NCBI GenBank assembly: GCA_005239725.1
Contig: SBBM01000028.1
Coordinates: 1 to 56,527, forward strand
Length of the DNA: 56,527 nt
Direction of reading: 5' to 3'
Origin: Planctomycetales bacterium
GTDB taxonomy: Bacteria > Omnitrophota > Gorgyraeia > Gygaellales > Profunditerraquicolaceae
The number at the start of each line of letters is the position of its first letter. The first letter of the stretch is position 1. The notes under the pieces were generated by a model. That model had not been told where the DNA came from, searched no databases, and saw only the letters and a list, made by a program, of their open reading frames with translations. Positions 41,416-51,327 of the stretch are shown piece after piece. The translations under genes were made by a program, and so were the position numbers.

Positions 41416-42996
41416 TTACTGATGAACTCGGTAATCTATGTTCGGGAATATGTTGTCTTTGTATTCGATGTCGGAAAGCCATGCCTCGTCAAGGGAGTTT
41501 GACTTTATGTCTTCGTATAGACGTGTGAACCGGAGGAGATGGTCTTTAGTCCTGCGTACGGCGTAACTAGTGTGCGTGCCTGTGCCCATAATAAATGCCC
41601 AGTCAGAGCTCTGAGCAAGAAGCAATTCCCGCAAGGCCTGGTTTAAAGCCCTCCTGTGCAAGCCGTTGGTATCCGGGAAACTCTTTGCCAATTCCGTCAT
41701 CCTTTCCGAAGCGCTGTGCAAATGCCGGTAAATCCAGTCCGTAGAGCCCTGCAGCCACATCTCGCTGTAACCCTTCCAGCCCCAGCTGGACATCGAAGGA
41801 GTAATCACCTGGTTGCGCGGGTTCTCGGCGAGGTATTCCGAAGGAGTAATCATACGTATTTCCTTCTGGTCAAAAGCAATCTTGCGGATAAGAAAATCCA
41901 GCCACATCGGGCCCTCATACCACCAGTGGCCGTACAATTCCGCGTCATATGGAGAAACTATTATGGGCTTCTTATGCAGGAAGTCATGGAGGTATTCTAC
42001 CTGCTTCTGGCGGTTAAACATAAAGTTTCCGGCGTGCTCTGCTGCCCGGGCCTTAGCCCATTCCGGATTATACGGCTCTTTATGGTCGCCTGTGCCGGTT
42101 ATGCGGTAATATTTTATCCCGGTATTTATCCTTACGCCGTCAGGGTGGATATAGGGTTTTATGTAATCATATTCCAGGTCAAAGCCGATATCCCGGTAAA
42201 ATTCGCGGTAATTATAATCCCCGGGATAACCTTCAATAGAAGACCAGACCTGCTTGGAAGATTCCAGGTCCCTGGCAAAGCAGGCCACACCCGTACCCTT
42301 GCAATAAACAGGGGCAAACGTCCCGTATTTAGGCCTGGGTGTGCCGTGTAATACTCCGTGCGCATCGCTAAAGAAAAACTTGATGCCTGTTTCTTTCAGG
42401 ATTTCATCGTGCCCGGGATAATAACCGCACTCGGGAAGCCATATCCCCCTGGGCCTCCTGCCGAATACGTTTTCATAATGGCTTGCCGCCACCCGCACCT
42501 GCGCTTTTATGGAATCGCGACATACATCCATAAGCGGAAAATACCCGTGGGTTGCCCCGCAGGTAATTATTTCTATTTTTCCCGCATCCTGAAGGTTCTT
42601 AAAACCTGCAACCAGGTTACGGTTGTATTTTTCAAAGGTTTGCCGGGCTTTGCAAAAATGGTTCAGGTACATTATTGCCAGGTGCTGGAATTGCGGCTGC
42701 CAGGCGGTGCGCTCTATTTCTTTGTGCGCAAGCTCAATCAGCCGGTTTATGTGCTTTAAGTAACGTTCCTGGAGAAGCTGGTCGGAAAGCATCGAGATTA
42801 AGCTGGGTGTCAAGGACACGGTAACCCTGAAATCCACCCCGTCTTCGGCCAATTTTTCAAAAACCCCCAACAAAGGAATGTAGGTTTCGGTTATGGCTTC
42901 GTAAAGCCAGTCCTCTTCCAGGAAATCATCATGTTCGGGGTGTCTGACAAACGGAAGATGGGTATGTAAAACTAAACAGAGGTATCCTTTATGCAT
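41416..42996 (-). CDS. GH57 family 1,4-alpha-glucan branching enzyme-like protein
   Basis: 526 aa; LVLHTHLPFVRHPE, GIWLPECGYYPG, SPYDAELYGHWWYEGPMWLDFL. Confidence 0.9.
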   Translation of the reverse strand: MHKGYLCLVLHTHLPFVRHPEHDDFLEEDWLYEAITETYIPLLGVFEKLAEDGVDFRVTVSLTPSLISMLSDQLLQERYLKHINRLIELAHKEIERTAWQPQFQHLAIMYLNHFCKARQTFEKYNRNLVAGFKNLQDAGKIEIITCGATHGYFPLMDVCRDSIKAQVRVAASHYENVFGRRPRGIWLPECGYYPGHDEILKETGIKFFFSDAHGVLHGTPRPKYGTFAPVYCKGTGVACFARDLESSKQVWSSIEGYPGDYNYREFYRDIGFDLEYDYIKPYIHPDGVRINTGIKYYRITGTGDHKEPYNPEWAKARAAEHAGNFMFNRQKQVEYLHDFLHKKPIIVSPYDAELYGHWWYEGPMWLDFLIRKIAFDQKEIRMITPSEYLAENPRNQVITPSMSSWGWKGYSEMWLQGSTDWIYRHLHSASERMTELAKSFPDTNGLHRRALNQALRELLLAQSSDWAFIMGTGTHTSYAVRRTKDHLLRFTRLYEDIKSNSLDEAWLSDIEYKDNIFPNIDYRVHQ

Positions 42997-42999
42997 AGT

Positions 43000-44064
43000 T
43001 TATTCGCTCTTCTGCACAGCCTCTTTAAGCAAACTTGCGGTTTTAGTTTCCCTGGTTACTATTGGGGTTATTGTGCGCTCTTCCAGTTCATCGGAAGAAA
43101 CAGCCTTTACGGGTATGACCTGCTCGCCGTTAGGGAGAGCAAACCGCAGGGTAAAGGTGCCGTCCGGACGCAGTTTTATTTCCCTGTTCTGGACAGTTAC
43201 TTTTGCATCGGGCTCGGTTGCCCCGTAAACAATTAATTCGCAATCAACCACCAGCCAGAACTTCCTTTCCTTGGGCACTTTCTTTACGGGGCTGGCCATA
43301 GAAGCCATTCCCGGTGAAGCCAGAGCCCCTGAAAACAAGAGTTTCTTGACTCTTTCCTGCCAGGCTTTCCCCAGGGGAGAAGTCTGGCCTAAGCCAAACC
43401 CTAACCCATAAAGCCTGCCGAACATCTCTTCGGGGATCATCCATTCCTCATCGGTAATCCAGGACGGGCCCTCCAGGGGAGTGCACACGGTATTTGAACG
43501 GACAATGGTTATGAATTCGCCGTTAGGTAATTTTAACCCTAAATCCACGCACCAGAACCTGCCCGGGCCGTTGGTATCAATATACCAGTTATTTGCGCCG
43601 TAGCTGAGCTCAATGTCGAAAAAACTATTGGCATTTGCGCCGTTAAAGACAATATTGGTCACATCATAAACCCTGAGCGTCATCTTGGCGCCGTTAAATT
43701 TACCCTGCAGGTCCCTCTTAAATCTATCCCAGGTATTATTGGTAACTTCCCAGTAAGCGTGCAGCCAGCGCGGGTCGCGCACCTGTAAAACTATCTTATC
43801 CTTACCGTATCCCCAGGGCAAATCATGAGACATTATCCTTAGGCTCGGCCGGGGGATTTCCGGATGGGAAAATTTTGTCTTTTCTACCGCTACCTCTTCC
43901 TGTCCCAATATTTCCTGCTCTTTTCTTAGAGGCTCTTTTTTTATTATTTGCTTAATAATACTCTTCTTTTTTATTTTCGCGGAGGATGCTTTTGCCACCT
44001 TTATTTTTTTCTTCTTTTCGATGACCTTCTTTATTTTATCTTTTATTCTTCGCAGTGCCGCCAT
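43000..44064 (-). CDS. DUF4912 domain-containing protein
   Basis: 354 aa; WGYGKDKIVLQVRDPRWLHAYWEVTNNTW; Lys-rich N-terminus. Confidence 0.8.
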   Translation of the reverse strand: MAALRRIKDKIKKVIEKKKKIKVAKASSAKIKKKSIIKQIIKKEPLRKEQEILGQEEVAVEKTKFSHPEIPRPSLRIMSHDLPWGYGKDKIVLQVRDPRWLHAYWEVTNNTWDRFKRDLQGKFNGAKMTLRVYDVTNIVFNGANANSFFDIELSYGANNWYIDTNGPGRFWCVDLGLKLPNGEFITIVRSNTVCTPLEGPSWITDEEWMIPEEMFGRLYGLGFGLGQTSPLGKAWQERVKKLLFSGALASPGMASMASPVKKVPKERKFWLVVDCELIVYGATEPDAKVTVQNREIKLRPDGTFTLRFALPNGEQVIPVKAVSSDELEERTITPIVTRETKTASLLKEAVQKSE

Positions 44065-46688: not shown

Positions 46689-47927
46689 TTATACCGCCAT
46701 TGTAAATATTTTTCGTGCAATATCCGGGTATTTGGCGATGAATTTCAGCTCATCGTCCACCAGCGGCTTCTGGTTATGCACATTGGCATAACGCGCCAAT
46801 TCCAGGATTTCCGCTGCTTCTTTATCGTCATGGAAGACAATTTCCAGTTTATCGTAGACATTCCTGAAACCCTTGATCCCGGAATATTCTCCCACAGTAA
46901 TCTTACGCCCGGTCTCGATTATTTCAGGCTCCCCTCTGCCCAATTCTTCATAATCGTAAAGCTCATAATTACGCCTGTCCTTAAGCGCTCCATCGGCGTG
47001 GATGCCGGACTCATGGGCAAAGGCATTCGAGCCTACGCCGGGCTGGTTTATAGGTATCGGGATGCCGAAGGCGTAAGATGCGTATTTGCAAATCTTCCAG
47101 GCAATTTTTAAATCTACCCGTTCATCAAGGATGTATTTATCCTTGATTCCGTTTGCGTATTTTATGGCCAGGATTACCGCCACAAGGTCGGCATTTCCTG
47201 CGCGCTCCCCCATCCCGTTCAGGCAGGTATTAATATAGGCATCTACTCCGGCGTCGTTGGCTGCCATTGCCCCGCACACCGAAATGCCCACTACCATCCC
47301 TAAATCATTATGACAGTGTATTTCAATGGGTAATTGGACCGCCTCAGCGAGTTCTTTAATCCTTTCGTAAATACTGAACGGCGAATCACAACCGAGCGTA
47401 TCGCAATACCTTATCCGGTCCGCCCCGGCCCTCTTGGCCGCCTGGGCAAACTCAATCAAATAACCTATGCTGGTGCGCGAGGCATCTTCGGCATTTACGC
47501 CTACGGACTTTGCCCCTGACTTTAAGGCTTCCTTTACCGCCTCCGTCATCTCTCCTATTATCGAGGCATGGTCGAGCTTGCCCTTAAATTTATGGATTAT
47601 CATCTGGTCGGAAGTAGAAATCGAAAGGTTAAGGTGCTCTAGACCCGGGACAAGTTTAAAAGCAAGTTTTACATCTTCCTTTGTCGCCCTCAGCCAACCG
47701 CCCAGCCTTATAGATGAAAGCGCGCCTTTCTTAACCAATTCCAGGTTCGCATTCAGGTAATTTGTCTCATGATGCGTAATCGGGAAACCGAATTCTGACT
47801 GGAATACGCCCATCTCATTAAGGTATAAGTTTATCATCGTCTTTTGCAGCTTAGAAAGGCATATCCGTGAAGTCTGGACCCCGTCGCGGTTGGTAACATC
47901 AATAAGATAAATTTTTGGTTTTGCCAT
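46689..47927 (-). CDS. homocitrate synthase-like / DRE-TIM metallolyase (candidate Re-type citrate synthase)
   Basis: 412 aa; LIDVTNRDGVQTSR variant of DxTLRDGEQ, IEIHCHNDLGMVV, GMGERAGNADL, GVGSNAFAHESGIHADG. Confidence 0.85.
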   Translation of the reverse strand: MAKPKIYLIDVTNRDGVQTSRICLSKLQKTMINLYLNEMGVFQSEFGFPITHHETNYLNANLELVKKGALSSIRLGGWLRATKEDVKLAFKLVPGLEHLNLSISTSDQMIIHKFKGKLDHASIIGEMTEAVKEALKSGAKSVGVNAEDASRTSIGYLIEFAQAAKRAGADRIRYCDTLGCDSPFSIYERIKELAEAVQLPIEIHCHNDLGMVVGISVCGAMAANDAGVDAYINTCLNGMGERAGNADLVAVILAIKYANGIKDKYILDERVDLKIAWKICKYASYAFGIPIPINQPGVGSNAFAHESGIHADGALKDRRNYELYDYEELGRGEPEIIETGRKITVGEYSGIKGFRNVYDKLEIVFHDDKEAAEILELARYANVHNQKPLVDDELKFIAKYPDIARKIFTMAV

Positions 47928-48013: not shown

Positions 48014-49747
48014 TTAATCTCTTCCGAGTGTTTTTTTAAGTTCTTCCCTGGAAGGAACACCCGAAGTGCCAAATACCTCCTGATTATCCATAAGATACGC
48101 CGGTCCGAACATAATCTGCAGTTCTCTTGTCAAGCCGGTATTCTCCAGTAAAAGCGCTTTGCCTTCCTGGCCTTTAGCGCAGGCCATTATTTTTTCCCTG
48201 TCTTGCTCTTGCTTGCCGAGGCAATCCTCCCACCATGTGCTCTGGATATTTTCCGCCCGGCAGGCAATATAATCATAAAAATTTTCCGGGTAATATTTAT
48301 AAACGCAAAGGCTGCGCATATCCTCTTCTACCTCGGGTTTTCCTTTCGCAGCCTCAATTTCGCCGTTTTTCTCAAGCGCCAAGAAATGCACCGCCGGTTT
48401 AAAATCTCTGATCGCCCCGATGACTCCAGACATATTTTTGTCATATAAACTTATAAATACATCGAATTTACCCTTTATTTTTTCTCTTCCCAGAAAATAA
48501 GAAATACCTGTAAAAGAAGGCCTGAGTATGTAATACCCGCCCTCTTTATTCAATAAATCCTTATTTAACTCGTTAAAGTTTTTTTCTCCTTCTATCGTTT
48601 TATCCAAAATATAAGCCGGTAATCCCTTTATTTTAAGGTTATCAACCATCTGTTTTGCCTTGTCATCCGGGTAATGCAAGTAAGAAACATTTAAGCCGGG
48701 CAATTTATTTTTCAGGAATTTGATTATATCTGCTGTATCGCAGACTTTACAAATTTTAGGAACAATAATAGTCAGGGGTATTTCTGTGGCTCTGGTAAAT
48801 ACGCACCGGCTTTTATTTGTCCCCCGGTCCTGGCAGGTTCCCATCGAGCCTTCCTGCCTGCAATTGGCATCGGAGAAACACTCCGGCAATATAGAAAGTA
48901 TGGCGCGGTCATCGGGGATTTCGCTGGATAAACGTATGTTTTCTACTTTAAAATCTGCGATTTTTTTATCCTTTATAACCAGCTTTGCCTTGCCCAGGCG
49001 CCTCCCCTGCCAGGCCGGCCTTAAAACTAAGACAGGGCCTACCTTAGAATAAATCTCTTCCTTTGCCCGGCTATGGCCGCTGATAAGTATGTCAATCCCC
49101 GACACCTTACTAATCAATGCCGTATCATCGGTCTCGCCAAGATGGCTTAAAAGGATGATAATATCTGCGCTTTTCTTTTTTAACTCGGCTACTATAGAGC
49201 TGACCTCGGCTTCAGGGCTAAACACATCAAGCCCTCCGGTTTTTTCCTTTTTTAAAGGCGTGCTTACGCCGATTATCCCAACCTTTAGGCCCGCAACTTC
49301 CTTAATAATATACGCCGATGTTTTCTTCAATTTTATATTGCAAGAAAGGAAATCCATCTTGGCCTTCTCTATTATCTCCTCCAAGAATTCCCTGCCGAAG
49401 CTAAATTCGTCATCTCCGATTGCCGCAGCATCATAGCCCATTAATTCCATGCCTTTCACATTTACCCGGGTACGCGCCTTATCCAGTTCGGTATTCTGGC
49501 TGTTGGCATCCATTATGCCGCCGGCAAAAAAGGCCCCTGAGTCCAAAAGCAGCGTATTGGGGTTTTCCCCCCTCAACTTTCTAACCAGGGCCGCCCTGCG
49601 GGCAATGCCCCCGTCAGGCTCTGCGGGACAATCACAGTGATAGAGCGCTCCGTGTGTTTCTCCGGTGTATAAAAGCGTGATTTCTTCGGCAAATAAAGGG
49701 CCGCTCCCGAGCAACAAATACCAAATCAGAAACAATGATTTTCTCAT
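48014..49747 (-). CDS. exported 5'-nucleotidase-like metallophosphatase fused to a thioredoxin-like C-terminal region
   Basis: 577 aa; signal peptide; TGETHGALYHCDCPAEPDGGIARRAALV, LLSHLGETDD, ILISGHSR; C-terminal CKVCDTADIIKFLKNK...IKGLPAYILDKT. Confidence 0.75.
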   Translation of the reverse strand: MRKSLFLIWYLLLGSGPLFAEEITLLYTGETHGALYHCDCPAEPDGGIARRAALVRKLRGENPNTLLLDSGAFFAGGIMDANSQNTELDKARTRVNVKGMELMGYDAAAIGDDEFSFGREFLEEIIEKAKMDFLSCNIKLKKTSAYIIKEVAGLKVGIIGVSTPLKKEKTGGLDVFSPEAEVSSIVAELKKKSADIIILLSHLGETDDTALISKVSGIDILISGHSRAKEEIYSKVGPVLVLRPAWQGRRLGKAKLVIKDKKIADFKVENIRLSSEIPDDRAILSILPECFSDANCRQEGSMGTCQDRGTNKSRCVFTRATEIPLTIIVPKICKVCDTADIIKFLKNKLPGLNVSYLHYPDDKAKQMVDNLKIKGLPAYILDKTIEGEKNFNELNKDLLNKEGGYYILRPSFTGISYFLGREKIKGKFDVFISLYDKNMSGVIGAIRDFKPAVHFLALEKNGEIEAAKGKPEVEEDMRSLCVYKYYPENFYDYIACRAENIQSTWWEDCLGKQEQDREKIMACAKGQEGKALLLENTGLTRELQIMFGPAYLMDNQEVFGTSGVPSREELKKTLGRD

Positions 49748-51327
49748 AACTTTATCAACTTTACGTAGAGAATATTCTCCAGCTTCCTTATCTGCTCCAG
49801 GACTTGGGGCGAAACAGGATTGTCAATATTTAATATGCTCACAGCCACATCCCCGGCTTCCTTGCGGCCTAAAGTAATCCCGGCAATATTTATTTTGTGC
49901 CTGGCAAGCAGAGTCCCGATATTCCCGATAATGCCCGGCTTATCCCAGTTTTTCATCGTAAGCAGATAACCTGAAGGCGAGGCCTCAACGTAGAATCCGT
50001 CAATTTTGACAATCCTGGGCTCCCTCTTTGGCGAGAGGGTCGCGGCAAATTCCCTTGTTTCTTTATCCGAAGAAACTTTTATGGAAATAAGGTTTACAAA
50101 TTCCTCATCTACGGATACCTTTGTTTCCCTTACCTGTATCCCCCGGCTCTTTGCCAGGGGAATGGCATTTACAAAGTTAATCGCCTCTTTCAGTATAGGG
50201 GTAAGCAGGCCTTTGACTATGGCCATAGTAATAGAGGCAGCGTCATATTTCGTGATATCTCCTGAGTATTGGATATCCACGCCGGTTATCCCGCCCTCAA
50301 TTATCTGGCTGGAAAAATTCCCCAGTTTTTCGCCCATTAAAATATAAGGCTGTAATATCTTATACAATTCCGAATCAATGCGCGGGTAATTAGCCGCGTT
50401 ACGGATGCCTTTACCTAATAAATAGTCGCGCACACACTCCGCAACTTCTATCGCCACGTTTACCTGGGCCTCTTCGGTAGAAGCGCCCAGGTGGCAGGTA
50501 GTAATGATATTATCAAGTTTAAAGATTTCTGAATTCGGGTCAGGCGGCTCCTGCTCAAAGACATCAAGTGCTGCCCCGGCAATCCTGCCTTCTTTCATTG
50601 CCCTGATTAATGCCGCTTCATCAATAATCCCGCCGCGGGCGCAGTTTAGAATACGCGCGGTCTTTTTCATAACAGCAAATTCCTTATCAGAAATCATGTG
50701 TCTGGTATCGTCGGTCAAAGGCACATGCACGGTAATAAAATCCGCATTTTTAAGAATTCCGTCTAAATCCGAGGCTTCTACGCCGATTTCCCTGGCTGCC
50801 TCTTTAGAAAGATATGGGTCGTAAGTCAACACTTTCATCCCGAAAGAAAGGGCACGCTTTGCTACCTCTGTACCTATCCTGCCTAATCCTATAATGCCTA
50901 ATGTCTTCTGGTAAAGCTCAACGCCCATAAATTTTGCGCGCTTCCACTCGCCCTTTTTCACGGAATTATGCGCCTGGGGTATACTCCTAGCAAGGCTTAA
51001 TAAGAGACTCATAGTGTGCTCGCAGGTGGAAATGGTATTCCCGGCAGGGGTATTCATGACAACGATGCCTCTGTCGGTAGCAGCAGCCAAATCCACATTA
51101 TCCAAACCCACTCCTGCCCGTCCGATGACCTTTAACTTCTCCGCCGCACTGATTAAATCCTTATTAACTTTGGTTGCGCTCCTGACAATGAGCGCGTCAT
51201 AATTTTTGATTATCTCTTTTAGCTCTTCTGGCTTTAAACCGTCCTTTGCATCCACCTGGAAACCCGGGGCATCCTTTAAAATCTCCAAACCTTCTTCCGA
51301 CAATTTGTCACTGACAAGTATTTTCAT
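49744..51327 (-). CDS. serA: D-3-phosphoglycerate dehydrogenase
   Basis: 527 aa; GRAGVGLDNVDLAAATDRGIVVMNTPAGNT, LGIIGLGRIGTEVA, NCARGGIIDEAAL, C-terminal ACT. Confidence 0.97.
   Translation of the reverse strand: MKILVSDKLSEEGLEILKDAPGFQVDAKDGLKPEELKEIIKNYDALIVRSATKVNKDLISAAEKLKVIGRAGVGLDNVDLAAATDRGIVVMNTPAGNTISTCEHTMSLLLSLARSIPQAHNSVKKGEWKRAKFMGVELYQKTLGIIGLGRIGTEVAKRALSFGMKVLTYDPYLSKEAAREIGVEASDLDGILKNADFITVHVPLTDDTRHMISDKEFAVMKKTARILNCARGGIIDEAALIRAMKEGRIAGAALDVFEQEPPDPNSEIFKLDNIITTCHLGASTEEAQVNVAIEVAECVRDYLLGKGIRNAANYPRIDSELYKILQPYILMGEKLGNFSSQIIEGGITGVDIQYSGDITKYDAASITMAIVKGLLTPILKEAINFVNAIPLAKSRGIQVRETKVSVDEEFVNLISIKVSSDKETREFAATLSPKREPRIVKIDGFYVEASPSGYLLTMKNWDKPGIIGNIGTLLARHKINIAGITLGRKEAGDVAVSILNIDNPVSPQVLEQIRKLENILYVKLIKL

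Follow-up and report, generated by a model that had tools for sequence, protein, structure and literature searches.

We propose that an uncultured bacterium of the phylum Omnitrophota encodes a periplasmic (secreted) protein for thiol/disulfide electron transfer, in which a metallophosphatase fold has lost its activity and which is fed by the membrane carrier CcdA, a reading to which we assign a probability of about 0.55. The protein, 577 amino acids long from an ATG start, is encoded at positions 48014..49747 on the minus strand of the window, by which we mean the whole stretch of 56,527 nucleotides that was analysed (assembly GCA_005239725.1, a metagenome-assembled genome; contig SBBM01000028.1, positions 1 to 56,527). 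In it, an UshA-like domain is followed by a linker with four Cys residues and by two domains of thioredoxin-like fold (Trx1 and Trx2). The architecture is new, within a known family of which the protein is a strongly degenerate variant; it is a new kind of system only if redox activity of the UshA-like domain is shown, and otherwise it is not. The proposal draws on the domain anatomy, the loss of the metal site, the conservation of a Cys pair, and the linkage to and co-occurrence with CcdA, as they appear in sequences and predicted structures. An original prediction, made from the window alone, had already placed an open reading frame at these positions and suggested that its product, instead of being a nucleotidase, may be secreted and serve redox chemistry or metal handling; the frame and every motif quoted are present, and the suggestion is supported, with thioredoxin folds found and metal ligands lost. 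Not foreseen were the second thioredoxin-like domain, the CxC/CxxC pair of the N-domain, the kinship to (seleno)proteins, and the link to CcdA and DUF1573.

Domain architecture

The protein begins with a Sec-type signal peptide (residues 1-20, 49688..49747; all features given here are on the minus strand), read from the sequence as RK, a hydrophobic stretch and LFA, with no lipobox, and modelled as a helix over residues 2-14. The UshA/5'-nucleotidase-fold domain that follows (residues 21-280, 48908..49687) was recognised by NCBIfam profiles, by phmmer against the PDB, where solved 5'-nucleotidases were matched at E 6e-17, and by Foldseek, whose matches included CD73 (E 5e-22, about 27% identity), UshA, and SoxB. 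A Pfam search of the 577 residues returned no match above cut-offs; there was thus no Pfam match to the 5'-nucleotidase C-terminal domain (PF02872), and the C-terminal half is thioredoxin-like instead. AlphaFold2 modelled the whole protein with a pLDDT of 93, using 75 family sequences as input, and the separately modelled C-half (residues 318-577) reached 95, with mouse GILT and DsbA as its best Foldseek matches and ScsC also matched, which bears out the predicted thioredoxin-like half with a CKVC motif. The original prediction would have been given up for a C-terminus lacking a thioredoxin fold or a fully active nucleotidase with canonical metal ligands; the C-terminus has thioredoxin folds and those ligands are absent.

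Between the two halves lie four Cys residues (C290-x5-C296-x8-C305-x9-C315, 48803..48880), invariant in 75/75 family sequences and forming a small linker. In Trx1 (48473..48796, pLDDT 95), sequence and model reveal a thioredoxin fold, the redox-type CKVC motif (C333-KV-C336, 48740..48751), and LP377 at the putative cis-Pro position, along with a weak profile match to PDO/thioredoxins. C333 and C336 occur in 68/75 sequences and, when lost, are always lost together (alignment A2, which includes a lineage with the CcdA gene next door). Trx2 (48017..48472) is GILT/DsbA-like by Foldseek and a GILT profile, and shares with DsbA, GILT, and ScsC its fold and a GILT-like signature region, but unlike them it lacks a CxxC: neither the sequence nor the alignment shows one beyond strand E428-432, and the only CxxC of the C-half is that of the separate Trx1. 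Its four nearly invariant Cys residues (C481, C496, C509, and C523) are jointly absent from a group of distant relatives, which suggests that they form structural disulfides; Trx2 itself is a degenerate GILT/DsbA-like domain that probably serves for docking.

Loss of the metallophosphatase site

Site positions were set by alignment to the Thermus 5'-nucleotidase 2z1a with the numbering of E. coli UshA, whose metal ligands are D41, H43, D84, N116, H217, H252, and Q254, and whose catalytic residues are H117 and D120. At eight site positions the window protein has E30, H32, A72, D112, D113, H202, H225, and R227. The predicted change of GNHEFD to GDDEFSFG aligns with GNHEFDLG of 2z1a (GDDEF replacing GNHEF, residues 111-115, 49403..49417), and the Asn ligand and catalytic His are indeed lost. 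The Asn was called metal-bridging, a point to be corrected, as the Asn of GNHE ligates a single metal and the bridging ligand is the Asp of LDxGD (Asp84 in E. coli). The loss also goes deeper than was claimed, as the bridging Asp is gone (LDSGA, Ala72, 49532..49534) and the first ligand Asp of TNDxH has become Glu30, while at the catalytic dyad H117 is replaced by Asp113 and D120 by Ser116.

These losses are shared by the family, as seen in a set of 79 aligned rows, two of them duplicating others. The bridging Asp is found in none (0/79), D/E mostly stands in place of the Asn/His pair of GNHE, the position of D120 is Asn in 74/79, the Gln/His position and both His ligands vary freely, and each row keeps between none and three of the eight metallophosphatase residues. 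True UshA paralogues of other Omnitrophota, in the same alignment, have 8/8. Of the eight, 3-4 are kept by variants fused to cytochrome and by those of one lineage (f14), which a tree of the N-domain groups together (96/82), with branches so long that rooting is unsafe. The window protein thus has the metallophosphoesterase fold in common with UshA and CD73, yet lacks their di-metal site with its ligand motifs DxH, GD, GNH, H and GHxQ/H, as well as their catalytic His-Asp dyad and nucleotide-binding C-domain, and has gained a CxC motif. An active nucleotidase was rejected on the lost ligands and the absent C-terminal domain, and a nucleotidase or phosphatase label given to such genes by automated annotation is probably mistaken.

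A conserved Cys pair and its selenoprotein kin

Beside the former metal site lies a redox-type CxC motif, Cys38-Asp-Cys40 (49628..49636). The original prediction quoted the surrounding YHCDCPAE, which is present, and overlooked the CxC within it, the most conserved feature: both positions are Cys in 79/79 rows, better than the 68/75 of CKVC, and a lineage that has lost CKVC (f6) keeps CxC. Of 75 family sequences, 73 have CxC and two CxxC, and wider relatives carry either CxC or CxxC (CGHC, CGSC, CGKC, CPSC), with a shift between the two in several lineages, the behaviour that a dithiol redox site should show. One relative (L191) has lost the pair (PGDS) and kept CKVC. In two very divergent proteins with a reduced nucleotidase-like part (L040:3066-4718 and L157:2167-3969, both on the reverse strand), the pair reads CLPC or CILC.

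The best NCBIfam match of the N-half was NF041198, 'UshA-like (seleno)protein' (PCGU; COG0737 CxU selenoprotein), with E 2e-40 and a score of 138.8 bits, short of the 275-bit cut-off, followed by SoxB (E 2e-29) and cyclic-nucleotide phosphodiesterases; NF049981, UshA-like selenoprotein family 2, scored 64.9 bits, below its cut-off of 140. The likeness to NF041198 comprises the UshA-like fold and the Cys-x-Cys/Sec motif after beta-strand 1. The match is confined to the N-domain, however, and NF041198-type relatives (L155) carry a cytochrome c554 region at the C-terminus, where the window protein has two thioredoxin domains. The NF041198 cut-off was passed by none of 285 Omnitrophota genomes (0/285). 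Selenocysteine occupies the corresponding spot as CxU in UshA-like/NF041198 proteins and as CxxU in family 2 (PMC2398784, PMC13188914), its position in NF041198 being taken here from PMC13188914 and the family name; from the name PCGU and the PCGC of relative L155 we infer that Cys40 aligns with selenocysteine. The N-domain matches listed from Omnitrophota contain no in-frame stop, by which a selenocysteine form is excluded among them and which sets them apart from NF041198.

Bioinformatic surveys list UshA-like bacterial selenoproteins without a reason for selenocysteine in a nucleotidase, and one names UshA-like as an exception among families with Cys redox motifs (PMC2398784). The lost metal site, the kept Cys pair, and the linkage to thioredoxin and CcdA offer a testable answer, that the UshA-like domain is an electron-transfer module, and a redox role of this fold may explain selenocysteine in related proteins elsewhere. 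Literature searches on UshA with thioredoxin, CcdA, and selenocysteine, or on SoxB/UshA pseudoenzymes, found nothing, and the terms tried do not appear in the main Omnitrophota paper.

Locus and occurrence

The gene stands in a conserved slot: of 80 loci, nearly all have the order class-V aminotransferase / serA / UshA-like–Trx gene / HMGL / purA / OmpA. In the window, serA (D-3-phosphoglycerate dehydrogenase, 49744..51327) lies upstream with a 4-nt overlap and an HMGL/homocitrate-synthase-like gene (46689..47927) downstream, both also on the minus strand. Among loci with serA and the UshA-like–Trx gene side by side, about two thirds show this 4-nt overlap, and co-transcription is therefore probable. 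A chance open reading frame or a misassembly is excluded by the 80 loci, fetched from named Omnitrophota genomes with the same gene order. The original prediction had advised a search for the same fusion in other genomes, and matches, nearly all full-length, were found in 50/51 genomes sampled from the GTDB family to which the window belongs (Profunditerraquicolaceae). At least part of the protein occurs in 46/58 genomes of near relatives and in 102/285 across the phylum, and relatives of full or nearly full length are present in the majority of genomes from the window's family, as well as in other orders.

Linkage to CcdA, DUF1573 and cytochromes

CcdA/DsbD carriers move reducing equivalents out of the cytoplasm, as established for DsbD. 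The membrane domain that we take to be CcdA was named by eye from its motifs (NPCAFT...CTGQ) and topology, and had no Pfam match to DsbD/CcdA. In 12/80 loci, a gene that combines DUF1573 (with CxC) and this CcdA-like domain lies between serA and the UshA-like–Trx gene. Elsewhere the parts are fused: UshA-like domain (CHC), thioredoxin (CxxC), and CcdA form one polypeptide in the f14 genomes, as do DUF1573, CcdA, and Trx1-Trx2 in another (G038), and in a third case (G069) an UshA-like domain with PCGC forms a fusion with cytochrome c554, next to a DUF1573 gene. DUF1573 is likewise listed among selenoprotein families, with the motif UGC (PMC9312934). Altogether, the module is adjacent or fused to CcdA in 23 genomes. 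CcdA (E <=1e-30) was found in 92/101 genomes with the module versus 25/184 without it and, leaving aside the window's own family, in 44/51 versus 24/183, counts that ignore shared ancestry. In the window genome, CcdA is not adjacent to the UshA-like–Trx gene: contig 15 carries a Trx(CHAC)-CcdA gene and, after it, one for a DUF1573 lipoprotein with CGC.

A membrane carrier that is adjacent, fused, or in the same genome recalls CcdA/DsbD and their thioredoxin partners such as ResA, CcmG, and SoxW; to our knowledge, no described partner of this kind contains a nucleotidase fold. A parallel is the Sox system, where the UshA-like fold of SoxB stands beside a CcdA-fed thioredoxin, SoxV and SoxW. SoxB, by contrast, needs the di-metal site that is lost here, and its profile scores the window protein at 102.1 bits against a cut-off of 550.

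Proposed function and its alternatives

In the mechanism that we favor, a CcdA/DsbD-type carrier, helped by a thioredoxin or a DUF1573 CxC domain, would take reducing equivalents from the cytoplasm across the inner membrane, and these would pass to the CKVC of Trx1 and from there to Cys38-x-Cys40 in the UshA-like domain. This site would then reduce or isomerise a disulfide, or a persulfide, in a putative periplasmic client bound where the nucleotide cleft used to be. The direction and order of electron flow, and the step from Trx1 to CxC, we infer; the CcdA-fed transfer as a whole is consistent with the metal-site loss, the Cys pair, the thioredoxin folds, the CcdA link, DUF1573, and the cytochrome fusion. 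Against it stand the loss of CKVC in 7/75 sequences and the PGDS of L191, so that neither pair is strictly essential everywhere, as well as lineages that lack the UshA-like domain and the position of CcdA apart from our gene in the window genome. More tentatively, at a little under even odds, the UshA-like CxC/CxxC/CxU domain could represent a new thiol-disulfide or thiol-selenol oxidoreductase, in which a redox Cys pair replaces the metal centre and which plugs into various electron suppliers (Trx-CcdA, tandem Trx with DUF1573-CcdA, cytochrome c554). If true, this would give the orphan UshA-like selenoprotein families a function.

The lineages without the UshA-like domain lend themselves to another, rather unlikely explanation, a pseudo-enzyme scaffold in which that domain only binds a ligand or client, CxC is structural, and the thiol chemistry falls entirely to Trx1, acting on a client that the dead fold presents. 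Several loci (L158-L164) carry a Trx1-Trx2 module without the UshA-like domain, several of them clearly in the serA-to-purA slot, so the Trx module has a role of its own and can work alone; the genomes of two of these lineages (f20 and f44) are also without an orthologous CcdA. Loss of the N-terminal pair with retention of CKVC in L191 points the same way. A scaffold accords poorly, though, with an N-terminal pair that is more strictly conserved than CKVC and outlasts it in the f6 lineage, and neither the shifts from CxC to CxxC nor selenocysteine at this position in related families resembles a structural disulfide.

CxC and CxxC motifs also bind metals, and CcdA-fed thioredoxins serve the metallation of copper and haem proteins. 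A slightly less probable alternative is metal handling, with CxC, joined in many cases by His32, binding a soft metal (Cu, Zn or Hg) and Trx/CcdA keeping the thiols reduced, as in periplasmic copper insertion. Retention of His32 in 68/79 rows would suit it, but in many relatives this residue is Tyr, Phe, Ser, or Arg with the Cys pair unaffected, and the conserved slot holds no metal transporter or cupro-enzyme; the redox reading is the better supported. Finally, a hydrolase still active through a rearranged metal site, be it a nucleotidase or a SoxB-like remover of sulfonate from a protein thiol, is most improbable with the bridging Asp in no row of the family, the Gln/His ligand and two His ligands free to vary, and the C-terminal substrate domain undetected by Pfam, despite the SoxB profile and Foldseek matches, the 3-4 ligands kept by f14 and cytochrome relatives, and the parallel of SoxV/SoxW/SoxB, where SoxV is a CcdA orthologue reducing SoxW according to the title of Appia-Ayme and Berks 2002, as cited in PMC2147049.

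Variants of the module and locus

Some relatives (L041, L042, L166, and the 1115-aa frames of G078/G149) have doubled GILT/DsbA-like and Trx modules around the four-Cys linker, and some of these proteins are fused to CcdA. In L030 (1453-4227, reverse strand, genome G002), the UshA-Trx gene continues in frame into the downstream HMGL gene, giving 925 aa; at the joint the ends of both genes are missing, and the fusion may be a product of assembly or deletion. The otherwise rigid gene order is interrupted in three loci (L071, L091, and L128) by a PilT-like ATPase gene that separates the aminotransferase gene from serA and in two cases encodes a PilZ-like N-terminus, and in five (L106, L109, L111, L115, and L116) purA is followed by a gene for a 698-aa membrane protein resembling a proton-pumping pyrophosphatase. 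Further along the window, a DUF4912 protein (43000-44064) and then a GH57 branching enzyme (41416-42996) are encoded, an order kept in most loci of the family.
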